The notes under the pieces: generated by a model
What the model was told of the DNA's origin: nothing
Databases searched by the model: none
Seen by the model: only the letters and a program-made list of their open reading frames with translations
Shown here: one piece after another, positions 46,217-56,774 of the stretch
How the letters are laid out: each line of letters starts with the position of its first letter
How positions within the stretch are numbered: the first letter of the stretch is position 1
Program-made: the position numbers and the translations under genes
Origin: Deinococcales bacterium
GTDB lineage: Bacteria > Deinococcota > Deinococci > Deinococcales > JAAFIG01
Reading direction: 5' to 3'
Length of the DNA: 64,000 bases
NCBI GenBank assembly: GCA_013298595.1
Contig: JAAFIG010000003.1
Span: 164,460 to 228,459, forward strand

Positions 46217-46250
46217 GATTACGGTTTGATTACGGTTTGAGGATTAAATT
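46217..46250 (+). promoter_or_regulatory. Direct-repeat activator site and promoter 1
   Basis: GATTACG at 46217-46223 and again at 46228-46234 (11-bp period), then exactly 10 bp to TAAATT (46245-46250). Same layout as the sites at 47097 and 50453. It precedes the papain-like protease gene; the last CTCGAG of the flank is at about 46200. Confidence 0.75.
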
Positions 46251-46322
46251 AAAACGAGTAAAGTAGAGGATGCGTAGACGACATGGACTTTGGCACAAAA
46301 AATTTTGATGTTGGGGGAATAA

Positions 46323-47090
46323 GTGGAAGAGAGAATTTACAATTGCTTGCCTTCAGTTAGATTGGTAACAGATTGGGATTATTCCATAGCCTATGCTTCA
46401 ATTAGAATGTCTGCAACGCCAGATTACCAATTACCTGCTTCCCACAACCTACATAAACGTTGGTGGAAAATACAAAACCAAGGCAATACAGGTGCTTGTG
46501 TAGGATTTGCACTTGCAGACTCAGTCTTACGCTGGCATTTTGTGCAGTGCAAAAAAATTATAAAATCTGAATCCTTATCTACACGCTTCATCTGGATTGC
46601 TGCAAAAGAAACAGATCAATACAGAGATTTTCCAACTTCATTTATAGAGCAAGAAGGCACCAGTCTGAAATCCGCCCTCCAAATTGCACAGCGCCTTGGA
46701 GTTGTACGAGATCGTGATTTTCCTGACACCATTTATATGGGAAGAAGTTCCACATTTTATGCCAATGCGGCAAGACTTAGGATCAGTAGCTTTTTTTTCT
46801 TACATAAAGATTTCAGTATTTGGAGAAAATGGATATTTGATCATGGTCCGATTTTAGTTAGGCTCGAAGTTGATAGTCATTTTGCTAGTGCGAACAAAAA
46901 TACAGTTTTAAAAAATTTTGATTCTAATTCTGTACTTGGATCTCATGCTGTTGCAGTGGTCGGTTTTGAAGGTGAGAACTTTATTATTCGGAATAGTTAC
47001 GGCATCAATTGGGGTAATAGAGGATTCGTCATTGCTAGTCAAGACTACCTAACTCAAGCCGTGTCAGAGGCTTTTGGTGTAACGATTTAG
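46323..47090 (+). CDS. Papain-like (C1) cysteine protease domain protein
   Basis: 255 residues, no signal peptide. The catalytic Cys is in QNQGNTGACVGFALADSV, the His in GSHAVAVVGFEGENF, and the Asn in RNSYGINWGNRGFV, the C1A order. The first 45 residues (LPSVRLVTDWDYSIAYAS) may be a short pro-part. Start GTG 46323 has GGGGGA 5 nt upstream. A 25-codon frame from ATG 46283 overlaps the start. The gene is AT-rich without CTCGAG. Transcription is expected from the direct-repeat promoter about 70 bp upstream. Confidence 0.8.
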   Translation: MEERIYNCLPSVRLVTDWDYSIAYASIRMSATPDYQLPASHNLHKRWWKIQNQGNTGACVGFALADSVLRWHFVQCKKIIKSESLSTRFIWIAAKETDQYRDFPTSFIEQEGTSLKSALQIAQRLGVVRDRDFPDTIYMGRSSTFYANAARLRISSFFFLHKDFSIWRKWIFDHGPILVRLEVDSHFASANKNTVLKNFDSNSVLGSHAVAVVGFEGENFIIRNSYGINWGNRGFVIASQDYLTQAVSEAFGVTI

Positions 47091-47096
47091 GAATCG

Positions 47097-47130
47097 GATT
47101 ACGTTTTGATTACGGTACAATTTTTATAGT
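47097..47130 (+). promoter_or_regulatory. Direct-repeat activator site and promoter 2
   Basis: GATTACG at 47097-47103 and 47108-47114, spacer TTTT, then 10 bp (GTACAATTTT) to TATAGT (47125-47130). TACAAT inside the spacer is an alternative -10. The site precedes the 155-residue gene by 30 bp. Confidence 0.75.
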
Positions 47131-47159
47131 CATACTCGAAGTTTTCAAAGGAGAATAAT

Positions 47160-47627
47160 ATGGCATTTAGTATTCAAACCGACTCAAGTGGCAATCTTAT
47201 TTACGATGACGGGAGTAAACGGGTCTATATATACGGCTGCAATTTACATGTGACAGAAAATAAGCTTCCGCCAGGACAAGGGTTAATTCCAAGTCGTGCA
47301 AGTATTTCTAGTGATTCAACGGTAGTAGATGCTGTGTGTCCGTGGCAACCACTGCTATTGCAAGATTGGGATAACAAAACCAATGGGCTTAGGGGAACCT
47401 TTGATAATGACTATCGAAGTAGCATAAAAAAATCAACTGCCACAGAGGCAAAGCAGCAACACTTGCGGTATCAATTCTGGCAGCTTTATATTTTCGTAGG
47501 CGACACAACAACAGCGACAGACCGTTCGATTACGAGTTTGTGGCGACAAATCACTGGTACAATAGCACCTATTTATACGCCGAGTTCAAGTACAGGGACT
47601 AACCCTCCCCCAGCAGTTGGTCCGTAA
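47160..47627 (+). CDS. Hypothetical protein with Ser/Thr/Pro-rich tail
   Basis: 155 residues I do not recognise. It opens MAFSIQTDSSGNLIYDDGSK, lacks a signal peptide, and ends with a low-complexity tail (YTPSSSTGTNPPPAVGP). The middle has several Trp (WQPLLLQDWD, RYQFWQLYIF). AAGGAG lies 7 nt before the ATG. It is the second gene with the direct-repeat promoter. It ends one base before the stop of the convergent regulator gene. Confidence 0.6.
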   Translation: MAFSIQTDSSGNLIYDDGSKRVYIYGCNLHVTENKLPPGQGLIPSRASISSDSTVVDAVCPWQPLLLQDWDNKTNGLRGTFDNDYRSSIKKSTATEAKQQHLRYQFWQLYIFVGDTTTATDRSITSLWRQITGTIAPIYTPSSSTGTNPPPAVGP

Positions 47628-50432
47628 CTACTCAAACAAAGCCATAGCTTTGGTGTTATCCGAAATTTTATCAAACATCAAGTTATTTTTTTTAATTAAA
47701 TCACTGGCTTTCTCTTCAACCCAGTGATTTAATATTTTTTGTCCATATAGGAATTGTAAAACAGTTATCACCTTTTCAATCTCATTTTTCAAAATAAAAA
47801 GATTCGCCAGAATGTATAGAGAGAACTGCAAAGGTAAAGGTAAATTTTTTTCAATAGATTTTTTTATAGAAAATAATATCTCTTTTTCGGCAGAAACATA
47901 ATCCATTTCATAGATTTTTAATTCAGATAATGCAATTTTATAGAAAACTTGTGTGTTTTCTGAAACAAACGCAAAATTTTCAACAAAATATGCAGCTTGT
48001 CTTTTTGCTTCTTTAATATTTTTGTTTTTTGTATAAAAAAATATTTGATAAATTTTATTCATTTGAAGAACATGATTTTCTTTATATTTTAATGCCGCAA
48101 GCTCATTTCTCAATAACATTTTTTCAAGAGAAATTCGATTTTTTTCAAAAAAAATATAAAATTGAATTACTGCTAATTCTAAATAAATTAAATTCATGTT
48201 ATTTTTTGTGGATTTATATATTTTTAAAGCATCATTATAAAATCTTATCGCCTTTTTATAATTACCTTGAAATACATAAATTTCCGCAATATTATGCTTT
48301 GCCATTGCTCTTCTTGTTATATTTTGATTTGAATTAGCAATATCTTCCATTTCAGTAAAATATTTTATTGCTAAGTCAAGTTTTAATAAAGTCCGAGATA
48401 TAACACCTAGAACATTTAAAATCTTTAATCGAAAGTTGTCATTTAATCTTTCTGAGAAATCATAAACCATTTCTGCATATAAAGTAGCTTTTTCATAAGA
48501 ATTATATCGGTGTAACAACCATGCTGCATTGATTCCCAATACCCCCAAAGCCTGTATTAATTCACTATCCTCTGCTCCTGTCTTCTCTGTCAACACCATC
48601 CTCGGCTCGAGAACCTGTATGGCAGCTTCAAACAACTGCACACCTTCCTCAAATCTCGCTCTTGCATCAAATAAACTGACCACATCTTGCAATCGGTCGA
48701 ACCGCGCTAAATCTGGGTGTTCGCATAACCAACCCCAAGCCACCTTAATATTCTCGAGGTCGGTTTCAAATGCTCCTAATACCATTCCCGCTTGGACTGT
48801 TCGCACCAGTGGCGCATTCTGCTCGAGCCAGCTGAGGAACACTTCGGCATGGGCGGCTTTGGCACTTTTGGCTTCTTTGGGGATACTCTCGAGGACTTCT
48901 AAACTGTACTGGGCAATCAGCGGATGAAGTCTGTACCGTCCGTTTTGTTGATTCTGCACCAAGGATTTTGCTACTAATGCCGCAATCACTGTGAAATTGC
49001 TATTCATGACTTGAAGTGCCGCTACCCTCGAGAAGCCATCACGAAATGTAGCTAGGCGCATCAACCCTAGGCGTTGCGGGTTGCTCAGCAGCGACCATGA
49101 CCAGTTAAACACGGCTCGCATACTGCGGTGACGCTCGCGCCCACCCTGAGCCTCGAGTGCATCAAGGTGTTGTTGTAAGGCTTCTAAGATTGCCTCGAGT
49201 GGTAAAACTGTAATTAAAGCTGCTGCCAATTCGATTGCCAGTGGAAATCGCTCGAGTAAATTACAAATTTTAATTGCGGTTTTAGTATGCCAAACAAAAT
49301 TTGTACCTGTGCGCCGACACGCTAAGTCCAGTAACTCGAGGGCGGATTCATCGTCGGCAAAACCCTCAAGTGGGAAAACTGTTTCTCCTAGTACTCCAAG
49401 GCGCTCGCGGCTGGTTAGAAGAATTTTGAGGTTAGGGCAGGATTCAAGTAGATGTTCTAAAGTTTCGCCAATGCTGACCAGATGCTCGGCGTTATCAAGC
49501 AGCAAGACAATGTTTTTTAAGCCAATTTGGGTTTTGAGTTGCTCGAGTGGTTCAGAAGTGCTTTCACGGTAACTCATGGCGCGTAAACACGCACTGAGAA
49601 CATCAGTTGGCTCGAGAATTGACTCGAGTGGTATAAAAAAAGTGCTGTGGGTTTCGGGTAAACCACGCAGCACCTCAAGCGCAAGACGGGATTTACCTGC
49701 GCCACCATAACCAACAATCGTGATGAGTCGCTGATTTTGCACTAAAGTTTCGAGAGCGGCTTGTTCGCTACGAAACACAAACCCAGAAATAGCACTAGGC
49801 AAGTTCCGCACTATGACTTTACTTCGATCTGGGATTTGAATATTCAAATCCAGCAGTTCTTGACGTACCACTACCACTAAATCATGCCTGCAATCCTCGA
49901 GAATACCAAATAAAACCAGTAAATCCTCTGACTCGAGTGGCACAGTTTGAGAAAGCCCATGTGCGGCAATAGCATGTTGTGAAGCGGCTGGTAGGTCAGC
50001 TTGTTCTAAAGCAATTAAGGCTAAGTGCAAATAAGCCTTAGTCACTCGAACTGTAATTAATTCTCGAGTTACCAACACCCATTCTTCAAATTCACTTGAG
50101 TCGAATTGCAAACCATCCAAGAAAACCCCTGAATACAATGCCACTGCACCAGCTTCATCACCAGCATCCAATTTCTCGAGGAGCAAACTGGCATCGCACG
50201 AAATAGCACATGCCAAGGTTTTTTGTTCCTCGAGCAGTACACCAGCCGTTCGGAGTTGTTGCAAAGCAATTCGCAAACTCGCAGCGGCATCTGAGGCTTG
50301 CCCCCACAATAATTCTCTGGCATGACTTCTGGGTTTTCGACCCTCGAGTGCCAAATACGCTAATAGTGACAGGGTTTTAGGGCGTGTTAAAGCATTATTC
50401 TCGAGTGCTAATTTCCCCAGTGTGATCAGCAT
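47628..50432 (-). CDS. BTAD/NB-ARC/TPR transcriptional activator (SARP/AfsR-like)
   Basis: 934 residues. About 1-70 form a winged helix (LLAYLALEGRKPRSHARELL); 80-200 a BTAD; the NB-ARC ATPase has P-loop GYGGAGKS at 241-248, Walker B LLLDNAEHL and LLTSRERLGVLGE. From about 560 to the end are TPR repeats (QNITRRAMAKHNIAEIYVFQ). SARP-type proteins bind direct repeats near -35 and recruit polymerase. Codons for residues 1-609 carry frequent CTCGAG; 610-934 carry none and are AT-rich, suggesting a replaced 3' part. TAGAAT with TG extension lies 6 nt before the ATG. Its own promoter overlaps site 3. Confidence 0.88.
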   Translation of the reverse strand: MLITLGKLALENNALTRPKTLSLLAYLALEGRKPRSHARELLWGQASDAAASLRIALQQLRTAGVLLEEQKTLACAISCDASLLLEKLDAGDEAGAVALYSGVFLDGLQFDSSEFEEWVLVTRELITVRVTKAYLHLALIALEQADLPAASQHAIAAHGLSQTVPLESEDLLVLFGILEDCRHDLVVVVRQELLDLNIQIPDRSKVIVRNLPSAISGFVFRSEQAALETLVQNQRLITIVGYGGAGKSRLALEVLRGLPETHSTFFIPLESILEPTDVLSACLRAMSYRESTSEPLEQLKTQIGLKNIVLLLDNAEHLVSIGETLEHLLESCPNLKILLTSRERLGVLGETVFPLEGFADDESALELLDLACRRTGTNFVWHTKTAIKICNLLERFPLAIELAAALITVLPLEAILEALQQHLDALEAQGGRERHRSMRAVFNWSWSLLSNPQRLGLMRLATFRDGFSRVAALQVMNSNFTVIAALVAKSLVQNQQNGRYRLHPLIAQYSLEVLESIPKEAKSAKAAHAEVFLSWLEQNAPLVRTVQAGMVLGAFETDLENIKVAWGWLCEHPDLARFDRLQDVVSLFDARARFEEGVQLFEAAIQVLEPRMVLTEKTGAEDSELIQALGVLGINAAWLLHRYNSYEKATLYAEMVYDFSERLNDNFRLKILNVLGVISRTLLKLDLAIKYFTEMEDIANSNQNITRRAMAKHNIAEIYVFQGNYKKAIRFYNDALKIYKSTKNNMNLIYLELAVIQFYIFFEKNRISLEKMLLRNELAALKYKENHVLQMNKIYQIFFYTKNKNIKEAKRQAAYFVENFAFVSENTQVFYKIALSELKIYEMDYVSAEKEILFSIKKSIEKNLPLPLQFSLYILANLFILKNEIEKVITVLQFLYGQKILNHWVEEKASDLIKKNNLMFDKISDNTKAMALFE

Positions 50433-50452
50433 GTGAGAATTCTAACAGTTTT

Positions 50453-50486
50453 GATTACGCCTCGGTTACGGTACACAAATTATATT
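50453..50486. promoter_or_regulatory. Direct-repeat activator site and promoter 3 (divergent)
   Basis: GATTACG (50453-50459), CCTC, GGTTACG (50464-50470), then 10 bp to TATATT (50481-50486), reading rightward. On the other strand the site covers the -35 region of the regulator's own promoter (-10 TAGAAT at 50444-50439), so both activation of the right-hand gene and self-control are plausible. Confidence 0.75.
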
Positions 50487-50577: not shown

Positions 50578-52551
50578 ATGAACTCTAAACTGAAAAACCT
50601 TATTTACTGTCTTATAGTATGCCTGACTGCTACTAGCCAGTCAGTGGCACAAACTGACATCACAGATATTTCGTTTTCCTTTGGACCAGACACACCATTA
50701 GTACTTGAGTGGACAGAGTTTCAACAAGGTTATCGCCTTCGAGTTGAAAATACATCAAAAAATAAGAGGGTTCTTGAGTGGGTAGCTGCACGGATTAAAC
50801 CTAGTGATGGGTTTTCAGAATCAATTTTAAAAATGATCAAAATATCAAAAGAAGAGTCATGCAAAACTATATCCTCAGCAAGCGGGTCTAACTCTCAAAA
50901 AATATGTGGGTATGTTGTAGCCAATTTATCTAACTTACAGCCTCGCAGCTCAAATTATATTACGTTACAAGTTAGCTCTAAACAATTTAAACTTCCAACG
51001 CGTCCTATAAAGTTCGTTTTAACATTGAACGAAACAAATTATGTTTCAGCATCACGAATCATTATCATTAAACCACCAGCTATACAAACTGACACCGATA
51101 AGCGAACTATTAGAATCTATACCTTTAACTTCTTAAATTGGAATCTCACTACATTAACTGGATTGAACTTACTTCAATCTGACTTATTTACAATTAATTC
51201 AATAAAAAGGCTTTGTGGGCGCAGTAATTTTTTGCAAACCGTGTGTATTGCTGATAGCACATTTAGTACTTTTAATGGGGATTTCGACCCAACTGACTAT
51301 GAACCACTAATTTTTCAAGGTACAAGTTCAAACCTATATGCAAAAATCAACTGGAATACGAACAATACTGGGCTGATATTAGACTTTGAGAAAGCTAAAA
51401 ATGAAACTTTCCCCGAAGGAGATTATGAAGCAACTTCAACCCGATTTGTAGGAACTGATCCGAGTAAATCGGTTAGTTTAAAGCTTGAAGTGAGGTCACA
51501 CTGGTTTATTGTTCTTTTACTGATTTTCATTGGACTATTTCTTGCCCTTGTTTTACGAATCCTACAGGGTAGCCCCGTCGAAAATCTTTTGCATCGAGTA
51601 GATAAAGCCAAGCTCAATTTTATTGATACTACAGGGGTATTACCATTTGAAAGCAACTATAACATCAAAAAAGCGATCTATTTACACGCATGGGATTTAA
51701 TTGAAAAAATCCAAAAACTTCGATTCCAAAACTCAGGAATAGTAACAGCCAACACTGTTGGATTTAGTGATTTGGAAGAGCAAGTTAAAAAATATGAAGA
51801 CCTGCCTAATCAATGGCATAAATTTATGCTCAATCTAAAAAACATTAAGAGAATAAACGGAAATCAGATTCAAATCCCGCAGAACCTACAACTACCAACA
51901 TCTTTTCAAAAGCAGTTAAGTGCCTCTCAAAGTCAAGATCTCAAAGTAGAAATATTAAACGGAGCAAGCATAAGCAACGCAAGCAAACAAGTTACACCTA
52001 CATATCTTGCAAGTTTCTTTGAAGAAATTGAAAATAGATTTGACCTAGCTAAAACAATAGTCACGGCAAATCCATCAGCTAATCAAAATACTGGAATACG
52101 TGTCTTAATTAAAAAATCATGGATTATCACAACTTGCTTGATTATTTCGGCTATTTTTATTTACCTCATTACTCATGAAGCAAATTCCAATACTCGGGAA
52201 TGGCAAGCCAAAGTCCTTATTTTCTGCATAACTCTCACCTTGGTCAGTTGGTTATGGACTCGAGTTATCTGGATCATCCAATGGTATTCGATGATCTTCA
52301 TAGAATTTCTTTCACCAAAAAAGCATCCTAATCAACCCTCTTTAATCAATATCAACTGGTGGGATACTTTACCTATCTTTATTGCAATCTTAGTTGCACT
52401 GATCAATGGGTTAAATGAGTTCTATCTTAAACTTTCGCCAACACCGCTGCTTCAACAACTCTTTTTCATAGCATGGGGTTTTGGTTCGACCACAGCAGTA
52501 CAAGCCCTCTTTATAATTTTAGAGAAATCACCCCTAGGACGTTATTTCTAG
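50578..52551 (+). CDS. Large membrane protein of unknown function
   Basis: 657 residues. A signal peptide (LIYCLIVCLTATSQSVAQ) leads to a periplasmic domain of about 300 residues, then a membrane segment (WFIVLLLIFIGLFLALVLRI), a cytoplasmic stretch of about 190 residues, and four further membrane segments near the C-terminus (IITTCLIISAIFIYLIT, VLIFCITLTLVSWLW and others). No family recognised. GGAGGT before ATG 50578 fixes the start. CTCGAG occurs only once, near the 3' end. Expression is expected from direct-repeat promoter 3. Confidence 0.7.
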   Translation: MNSKLKNLIYCLIVCLTATSQSVAQTDITDISFSFGPDTPLVLEWTEFQQGYRLRVENTSKNKRVLEWVAARIKPSDGFSESILKMIKISKEESCKTISSASGSNSQKICGYVVANLSNLQPRSSNYITLQVSSKQFKLPTRPIKFVLTLNETNYVSASRIIIIKPPAIQTDTDKRTIRIYTFNFLNWNLTTLTGLNLLQSDLFTINSIKRLCGRSNFLQTVCIADSTFSTFNGDFDPTDYEPLIFQGTSSNLYAKINWNTNNTGLILDFEKAKNETFPEGDYEATSTRFVGTDPSKSVSLKLEVRSHWFIVLLLIFIGLFLALVLRILQGSPVENLLHRVDKAKLNFIDTTGVLPFESNYNIKKAIYLHAWDLIEKIQKLRFQNSGIVTANTVGFSDLEEQVKKYEDLPNQWHKFMLNLKNIKRINGNQIQIPQNLQLPTSFQKQLSASQSQDLKVEILNGASISNASKQVTPTYLASFFEEIENRFDLAKTIVTANPSANQNTGIRVLIKKSWIITTCLIISAIFIYLITHEANSNTREWQAKVLIFCITLTLVSWLWTRVIWIIQWYSMIFIEFLSPKKHPNQPSLININWWDTLPIFIAILVALINGLNEFYLKLSPTPLLQQLFFIAWGFGSTTAVQALFIILEKSPLGRYF

Positions 52552-55418: not shown

Positions 55419-56774
55419 TTATTGTAGCGGTGTACTTGGCGTGGTTTTATCAATGTAAATCAGAGCATCAAAATCCTCGGTGGGTATTGCTTTGTAACTG
55501 TACCAATCGGGTTCTGGTGTACGAAATGGCGGTAAGTTCTGTCCGATAATTTGTAAACGCCGAGGAGTTTTTAACCATGCACCAGCGGGTGTTTTGGCTA
55601 AGTGCAAATCGAGCATAAAGAGTGGTAGTTGGGCAGCTCGGAAAATATATTCAAAACTATCTGAAGTTGGGTTTGGTACACTTTGGATACTGGGGTTGGC
55701 GGCTAAACCAACCAGTGCGGCTGCAACCGTTCGGATAGGATCGTTGCCATCTAGCATTTGGGCATAGAAACTGCCTTCAAAAAACGAAAATCCCCAGACT
55801 TTATACTGATCTTTGTACATATCACGCAGGTGTGCGCCTAATGGTTTCCAACCAAAGTGCATTTTGGCATTAAAAGTCACATGTCCGTTATGCGCCCAAA
55901 TCACAAGTTTTTGCTTGGTTGTTTTCTCGAGCCAAGACGTGTTTTCTGCCATGAAAGCATCTCGGATGGTTACGGCTTGCAGAATGTCTTGGGTGATAAA
56001 GCGTTCCTTATAGTAAATATTGCCTTGCTCGAGTACCCGCACCATTTGTAAAGCGGTGATGTATTCGGTTGTTTCTAGGCTCGAGCGACGATTTTGTAAG
56101 ATTCGCCGTACTGTATTGATGCGTTCGGCACATGCCATAAAGCCTTTGATTCCAGCTGCTGCGTAACGGGTGACATTGAGGATATTCCCCAACGAGAAAC
56201 GAATACACCCAAGTAGTTCATCGGCTCGAGTGGCTTGGTCGGGCAGGGTTTTTTCAAGGTAAGCAATCAGCCAATCTACGGCTGGGACGGGTTCCTGCAT
56301 ATCAAAACCACTAAAAATAACTTTATTGGCTGCTGTTTGGTTGTATTTACGTAACCACTGGATCAGGTCAAGCACTTCTTGGGTTCGCCAGGGCCACATA
56401 ATCTTTGCGTATTTTTGTAACAGTTCTTTACCGTCACCTATGCCAGTTTGCATGTATTCGTTGAGTGCTAAACTGCTTGCCCAATTGGCTTCCATGGCAA
56501 AAACCCGAAAGCCTTGGGTGGTAACCAAATACTCGAGCATACGATGTTTGGCTTGAAAAAATTCTTTGGTGCCATGCGTAGCTTCGCCAAGTCCAATAAT
56601 TCTGGCATTACCAACCAAGGCTGCCACTGGCTCGAGGTCGGTAAAACCATTTTCGGCTTGAATTGTTTTTAAGACAATAGCTTTTTCTTGTAACCAAGTG
56701 CTTTCAGAGCTAGTGGTTTGAGCCAATGCCAAACCGAATAATGCAACACTCAATAAAATCAGTAATCGTTTCAT
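55419..56774 (-). CDS. Secreted erythromycin-esterase-family protein
   Basis: 451 residues. A signal peptide (LLILLSVALFGLALAQ) exports it. Motifs of the EreA/succinoglycan-type hydrolase family are GLGEATHGTKEFFQAKHRML and WAHNGHVTFNAKMH, with the active-site His and Glu. True macrolide esterases act in the cytoplasm, so this secreted homologue may have another ester or peptide substrate; drug resistance should not be assumed. TAACCT lies 5 nt before the ATG. Confidence 0.85.
   Translation of the reverse strand: MKRLLILLSVALFGLALAQTTSSESTWLQEKAIVLKTIQAENGFTDLEPVAALVGNARIIGLGEATHGTKEFFQAKHRMLEYLVTTQGFRVFAMEANWASSLALNEYMQTGIGDGKELLQKYAKIMWPWRTQEVLDLIQWLRKYNQTAANKVIFSGFDMQEPVPAVDWLIAYLEKTLPDQATRADELLGCIRFSLGNILNVTRYAAAGIKGFMACAERINTVRRILQNRRSSLETTEYITALQMVRVLEQGNIYYKERFITQDILQAVTIRDAFMAENTSWLEKTTKQKLVIWAHNGHVTFNAKMHFGWKPLGAHLRDMYKDQYKVWGFSFFEGSFYAQMLDGNDPIRTVAAALVGLAANPSIQSVPNPTSDSFEYIFRAAQLPLFMLDLHLAKTPAGAWLKTPRRLQIIGQNLPPFRTPEPDWYSYKAIPTEDFDALIYIDKTTPSTPLQ

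Follow-up and report, generated by a model that had tools for sequence, protein, structure and literature searches.

The cassette and its three promoters

The window analysed here is a 64-kb stretch of a 4.58-Mb genome from an organism that groups by PurF with uncultured Deinococcales MAGs, at 94% identity to the nearest. It contains a gene cassette whose first promoter (46217..46250, + strand) carries the heptamers GATTACG-GTTT-GATTACG at 46217-46234 and the -10 box TAAATT at 46245-46250, before a gene for a C1 peptidase of 255 aa (46323..47090, +). The second promoter (47097..47130, +) has GATTACG-TTTT-GATTACG at 47097-47114 and TATAGT at 47125-47130, and precedes the gene for a 155-aa protein (47160..47627, +). 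Located next to it on the opposite strand is the gene for a 934-aa regulator (47628..50432, -), assigned to the large, AfsR-like SARPs, with a winged helix and BTA region followed by NOD and TPR regions. The third promoter (50453..50486, +), composed of GATTACG-CCTC-GGTTACG at 50453-50470 and TATATT at 50481-50486, is directed towards the gene for a 657-aa protein (50578..52551, +), which is predicted to have a signal peptide and to be exported or a multi-pass membrane protein.

The heptamer pairs are exact matches in the window sequence, and the original prediction of three sites with a common GATTACG-N4-GRTTACG-N10-TANNNT layout was confirmed at 46217, 47097 and 50453: in each of them a heptamer, 4 bp, a second heptamer and 10 bp lead to TANNNT, so that every -10 box begins 10 nt past the second heptamer. 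All three promoters are oriented rightward, with an ORF 29-91 nt downstream of each -10 box, and inspection of their sequences revealed no TTGACA-like element at -35. The heptamer pair is the same at sites 1 and 2, and the flanks and spacers of the sites differ. Promoter 3 lies 21 bp from the start of the regulator gene, and its -10 box is overlapped by an opposite-strand TATAAT (50479-50484), in agreement with the proposal that the third site overlaps the putative promoter of the regulator itself. A search of the whole genome for GATTACG-N4-GRTTACG returned the three window copies only, and the single match with one mismatch (C21:4338) was within a coding gene. Since the pair was found nowhere else, the regulon appears to be small and local, as had been anticipated.

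The ORFs named earlier as targets, for a papain-like protease and for proteins of 155 and 657 residues, are all present, and no biosynthetic cluster was seen at the window's sites. The C1 peptidase matches Pfam PF00112 (E 7.7e-11), contains the Q/C, H and N motifs (NQGNTGACVGFA, GSHAVAVVGF and RNSYGINWG) and has 5jt8 as its best PDB match (6.3e-8, phmmer). A search of 60 further genomes from the order revealed no relatives of it, and no support was found for a viral origin. A signal peptide was absent from both the C1 peptidase and the 155-aa protein. The latter is a diverged member (18-21% identity, with invariant positions in common) of a family of small proteins encoded beside SARP genes in four other loci, two of which, from two families of the order, have a common TGCGAC[AG] pair with CAAACT at N10. 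The profile of this family showed linkage to SARP genes and gave no functional clue; the profile of one member (L062) matched Lipoprotein_15 (E 1.7e-6). The 657-aa protein is an orphan, with no relatives among the 61 genomes searched.

Other features of the window were recorded. An erythromycin esterase-like protein (55419-56774, -; Pfam PF05139, E 6e-69) is encoded a few kb from the cassette, and no tie between this gene and the heptamers was seen. The palindrome CTCGAG has 406 copies in the window, 32x expectation; it is over-represented 20-31x in the whole genome and in three genomes of the same family, and 3-8x in other families of the order, resembling a highly iterated palindrome such as HIP1.

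The regulator and its fold

A BTAD activator had been proposed to adjoin the sites. The Pfam BTAD profile (PF03704), which is the usual annotation mark of SARPs and not a structural criterion for them, gave no match to the 934-aa regulator at E 0.1, and was above cut-off at 23 other places in the genome. The AF2 model of residues 1-223 (pLDDT 90.7) was most similar to EmbR of Mycobacterium tuberculosis (Z 12.9, 199 residues, 3.2 A), which has the same N-terminal fold but an FHA domain where the regulator has NOD-TPR, and to the SARP domain of AfsR (Z 12.2, 200 residues, 3.3 A), the next-best structural match having a Z of 9.2. Only this model-based comparison of the whole domain found SARPs: none was returned when phmmer searched the PDB with just the N-terminal part, or by a profile of the winged helix alone, and they were absent from the top 50 of Foldseek's own ranking of the model.

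The remaining architecture is also that of AfsR, which matches the regulator family profile over BTA-NOD-TPR (profile positions 152-902, E 3.3e-52). The NOD matched AAA_22 of Pfam (E 2.3e-7) and the NCBIfam AfsR NOD model (E 3.4e-11, short of that model's curated cut-off), and contains the P-loop GGAGKS (IVGYGGAGKSRL), and the C-terminal TPR region matched TPR_12 (E 5.7e-8). Given that the fold agrees, the missing PF03704 match is read as divergence beyond the profile. By its modelled fold and its architecture the regulator is a large SARP whose sequence has diverged; the proposed activator stands by fold, by PF03704-matching paralogues and by the AfsR match, PF03704 itself giving no match. 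Judged from sequence features, the reading of the cassette as a SARP/BTAD activator with a small local regulon is well supported.

In the recognition helix, Leu53-Arg54 is invariant in all the regulators aligned. A search of the genome contigs with the full-length regulator gave no match, and a sister species has an orthologue with 71% identity over the N-terminal 223 residues, which is interrupted by a contig end and thus allows only partial footprinting of the cassette. Anti-phage defence by a STAND effector with a protease was considered and dropped, as PADLOC gave just one generic TPR match.

The promoter plan in the genome and across the order

The layout is not confined to the window locus. 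It is a promoter plan found throughout the order, in which ACG is fixed and the preceding 4-mer is specific to the cassette. A pairwise test of sites without the ACG register was overwhelmed by coding periodicity at multiples of 3, so a test with a fixed ACG register was adopted. The pattern ACG-N8-ACG-N10-TANNNT had 31 matches in the genome, and the same 4-mer stood ahead of both ACGs in 20 of them, where 0.25 of 31 would be expected by chance at a generous 30% match per base. Shuffling of the second 4-mers among the 31 sites gave a mean of 1.9 identical pairs, and never 20 in 2000 trials. Eight 4-mer classes are present (TTTG, AGTC, GATT, TGCG, TGAG, TGGA, GGTA and GTTT), GATT being that of the window cassette. 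A SARP gene is near one member of each of the TTTG, TGCG, TGAG, TGGA and GGTA classes, and for AGTC the nearest is ~5-10 kb off. Approximately half of the sites in this genome have no SARP gene within a few kb, and their regulators can therefore be assigned by class only, or not at all.

Most targets of the sites are predicted to be exported proteins. With automatic start choice, 17 of 24 sites in this genome lead to a protein with a signal peptide or lipobox, a count that rises to 19 of 24 after correction of two start codons by eye, against a background of 34% in the same loci. Among the targets elsewhere in the genome are subtilases and RCC1 propeller lipoproteins, together with a clostripain-like protease and a thiol-cytolysin/tectonin protein. 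Contig C56 carries a sister cassette (L061:10557-16141) whose three GTTTACG pairs have as targets a thiol-cytolysin-like protein bearing tectonin repeats, an RCC1-propeller lipoprotein and a hydrophobic peptide of 22 aa.

Across 1.12 Mb, made up of 81 stretches surrounding regulators of many genera in the order, 14 sites with identical 4-mers were found at a period of 11 and a distance to the -10 box of 10; each of the other periods (8-25) and distances (3-19) gave 0-1. In eight further genomes the 4-mers were identical in 18 of 78 matches (0.6 expected) and differed by at most one mismatch in 43 of 78 (6.5 expected). Three Chloroflexota genomes, included as an outside control, had no identical 4-mers among 47 matches, and five with at most one mismatch (3.9 expected), indicating that the rule does not extend to them.

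Some variants and recurrent neighbours of the sites were also seen. In the TGCGAC[AG] class, from two different families (L062:7548 and L143:9570), CAAACT replaces TANNNT at N10, which means that sites are missed when the -10 filter is strict. Seven sites of a single loose class, most of them NRTAACG pairs, are scattered through a genome from another family (L258-L264); one of them stands before a lipoprotein gene, 59 bp beyond the gene for a large SARP. In two families of the order, the first gene past a site repeatedly encodes a protein of 60-70 aa and similar pattern (L149:10327-10521, L152:7170-7355, and L260 near 11846).

In a number of other genera, sites detected purely by pattern are 1-600 bp away from SARP genes, with distances measured to stop-to-stop ORF ends. 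Related regulators of three genera have GGCTACG sites at 1 bp, 81 bp, 595 bp and 2.8 kb; in two genera, AGCAACG sites occur 8-9 bp past regulators that are related, with one further case at 2.75 kb; and an AGTGACG site is 131 bp from a SARP gene. The more alike the DNA-binding domains of the neighbouring regulators, the more alike their heptamers (Mantel r 0.45, reached in 0 of 2000 permutations). The test is uncorrected for shared descent, but the joint inheritance of heptamer and regulator itself constitutes the link. By DNA-binding region, the nearest neighbours of CATC, GGCT and AGCA regulators are each of their own class, while GATT and GTTT regulators are each other's nearest relatives. 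Regulators of these two kinds lack the Arg at helix position 59 that is seen in most others, and have a shorter pre-helix loop. The gap between a third member of their subfamily (L071) and the gene diverging from it contains GTTAACG-N4-GTTAACC-N10-AAAACT, and the sister-species orthologue of the window regulator lies 4.8 kb from AATAACG-N4-GATAACG-N10-TACACT. The sister-species site stands before an operon (L069:3517-5967) that encodes an iron enzyme of haem-oxygenase-like type, a GNAT-like protein and a C39-like peptidase, and that resembles a small biosynthetic cassette.

Proposed mechanism and its significance

SARP target promoters have direct repeats with a period of 11 or 22 bp over the -35 region, and the window promoters have repeats of 11-bp period there. 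The textbook distance from the 3' repeat to the -10 box is 8 bp, a figure that depends on the heptamer boundaries; here it is 10 bp in the NNNNACG register. The usual role of SARPs in actinomycetes, the control of antibiotic and secondary-metabolite clusters, is not a structural criterion.

The closest known system is AfsR of Streptomyces coelicolor, which also has a SARP domain with NOD and TPR. Its afs box is composed of two 11-bp repeats, at -40..-30 and -29..-19, with the first 8 bp of each contacted (PMC10936776). If the -10 hexamer is assumed to be at -12..-7, the heptamers described here fall at the same positions, at -40..-34 and -29..-23, and the distance to the -10 box agrees when measured against the 11-bp repeats (~10 nt when the repeat is taken as its first 7 bp). 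The earlier view that direct heptamers near -35 are in the style of SARP/BTAD sites fits the afs box, which AfsR occupies (PMC10936776). The differences are that AfsR belongs to Actinomycetota and this system to Deinococcota, that the heptamer is NNNNACG and the afs box CGTT(T/C)ATCGNN, that there are many paralogues here, each with its own heptamer, and that the targets are mainly exported proteins and lipoproteins, not antibiotic genes. PimR, of the SARP-LAL type, is similar in having heptamers with 4-bp spacers, a divergent target gene and one monomer per heptamer (PMC5930380), but its heptamer is CGGCAAG, a triplet is required, the operator is clear of -35 and the targets are polyene clusters.

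We propose, with a probability of roughly 85%, that the 934-aa AfsR-type SARP binds the heptamer pairs and activates the three local promoters, as one of several parallel sets. AfsR places two SARP domains side by side, with sigma adaptation at promoters without a -35 element, and its NOD-TPR is inhibitory until ATP binding releases it (PMC10936776). By analogy, two copies of the regulator's N-terminal domain would occupy the two heptamers side by side (roughly -40 to -34 and -29 to -23 in each promoter), and the bound SARP domains would substitute for the absent -35 element and hold RNA polymerase at the -10 box. The genes for the peptidase, the 155-aa protein and the membrane protein would then be turned on together, and the NOD-TPR probably keeps the SARP domain off until a signal and ATP binding free it. 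The overlap of site 3 with the likely promoter of the regulator suggests feedback, in which binding would probably occlude that divergent promoter. With each paralogous SARP having its own heptamer pair, the cassette would be one of at least eight parallel activator-promoter sets in the genome.

The same positions could in principle serve repression, since the sites overlap the core promoter, occupancy from -40 to -23 would block RNA polymerase until a signal relieved it, and repressive action has been mentioned for the SARP Atr32 in Streptomyces (PMC10972967). We regard this as improbable: promoters without a -35 element would be weak unaided, and the fixed N10 suits a contact between activator and polymerase as in the AfsR complex (PMC10936776), whereas repressor operators need no such spacing. 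Somewhat less probable still is that an alternative sigma factor, or a local regulator of another kind, uses the repeats as promoter elements, with the SARP gene as a bystander. The sites that lie beyond a few kb of any SARP gene, about half of those genome-wide, would fit that explanation, but the exact direct repeats change together from cassette to cassette, SARP genes are within 1-600 bp of many pattern-found sites, and helix and heptamer co-vary. Chance, or a duplicated spacer that left three recent functionless copies of one sequence, would account for the identical heptamers of sites 1 and 2, but not for their unlike flanks and spacers, nor for the way in which period 11 and distance 10 stand out across many genera; as 4-mer identity also far exceeds permutation, it is excluded at the statistical level and is given a negligible probability. 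Activation by the SARP is the reading that we retain.

To our knowledge, SARPs have been studied almost solely in actinomycetes, with one or two members and their sites known per cluster. Our literature search, which covered few subscription papers and in which absence is weak evidence, found SARP sites described for actinomycetes only. The one BTAD activator found for the phylum is DnrS of Thermus thermophilus, which differs from the regulator in having GAF with a C-terminal BTAD and in controlling denitrification, and for which no DNA site is reported in PMC5748679.

We consider it likely, with less confidence than for the cassette itself, that Deinococcales hold banks of paralogous SARPs, each tuned to its own 4-mer in X4ACG-N4-X4ACG-N10-TANNNT. 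If so, these would be natural sets of parallel activators and promoters, in which the sequence could reveal the regulons and a code of SARP recognition could be derived. The presence in one genome of no fewer than eight heptamer classes, all on a single fixed scaffold and with regulators to match, makes the choice of base by residue directly testable, and would enable regulon prediction in Deinococcota and provide candidate parallel activator-promoter pairs for engineering.
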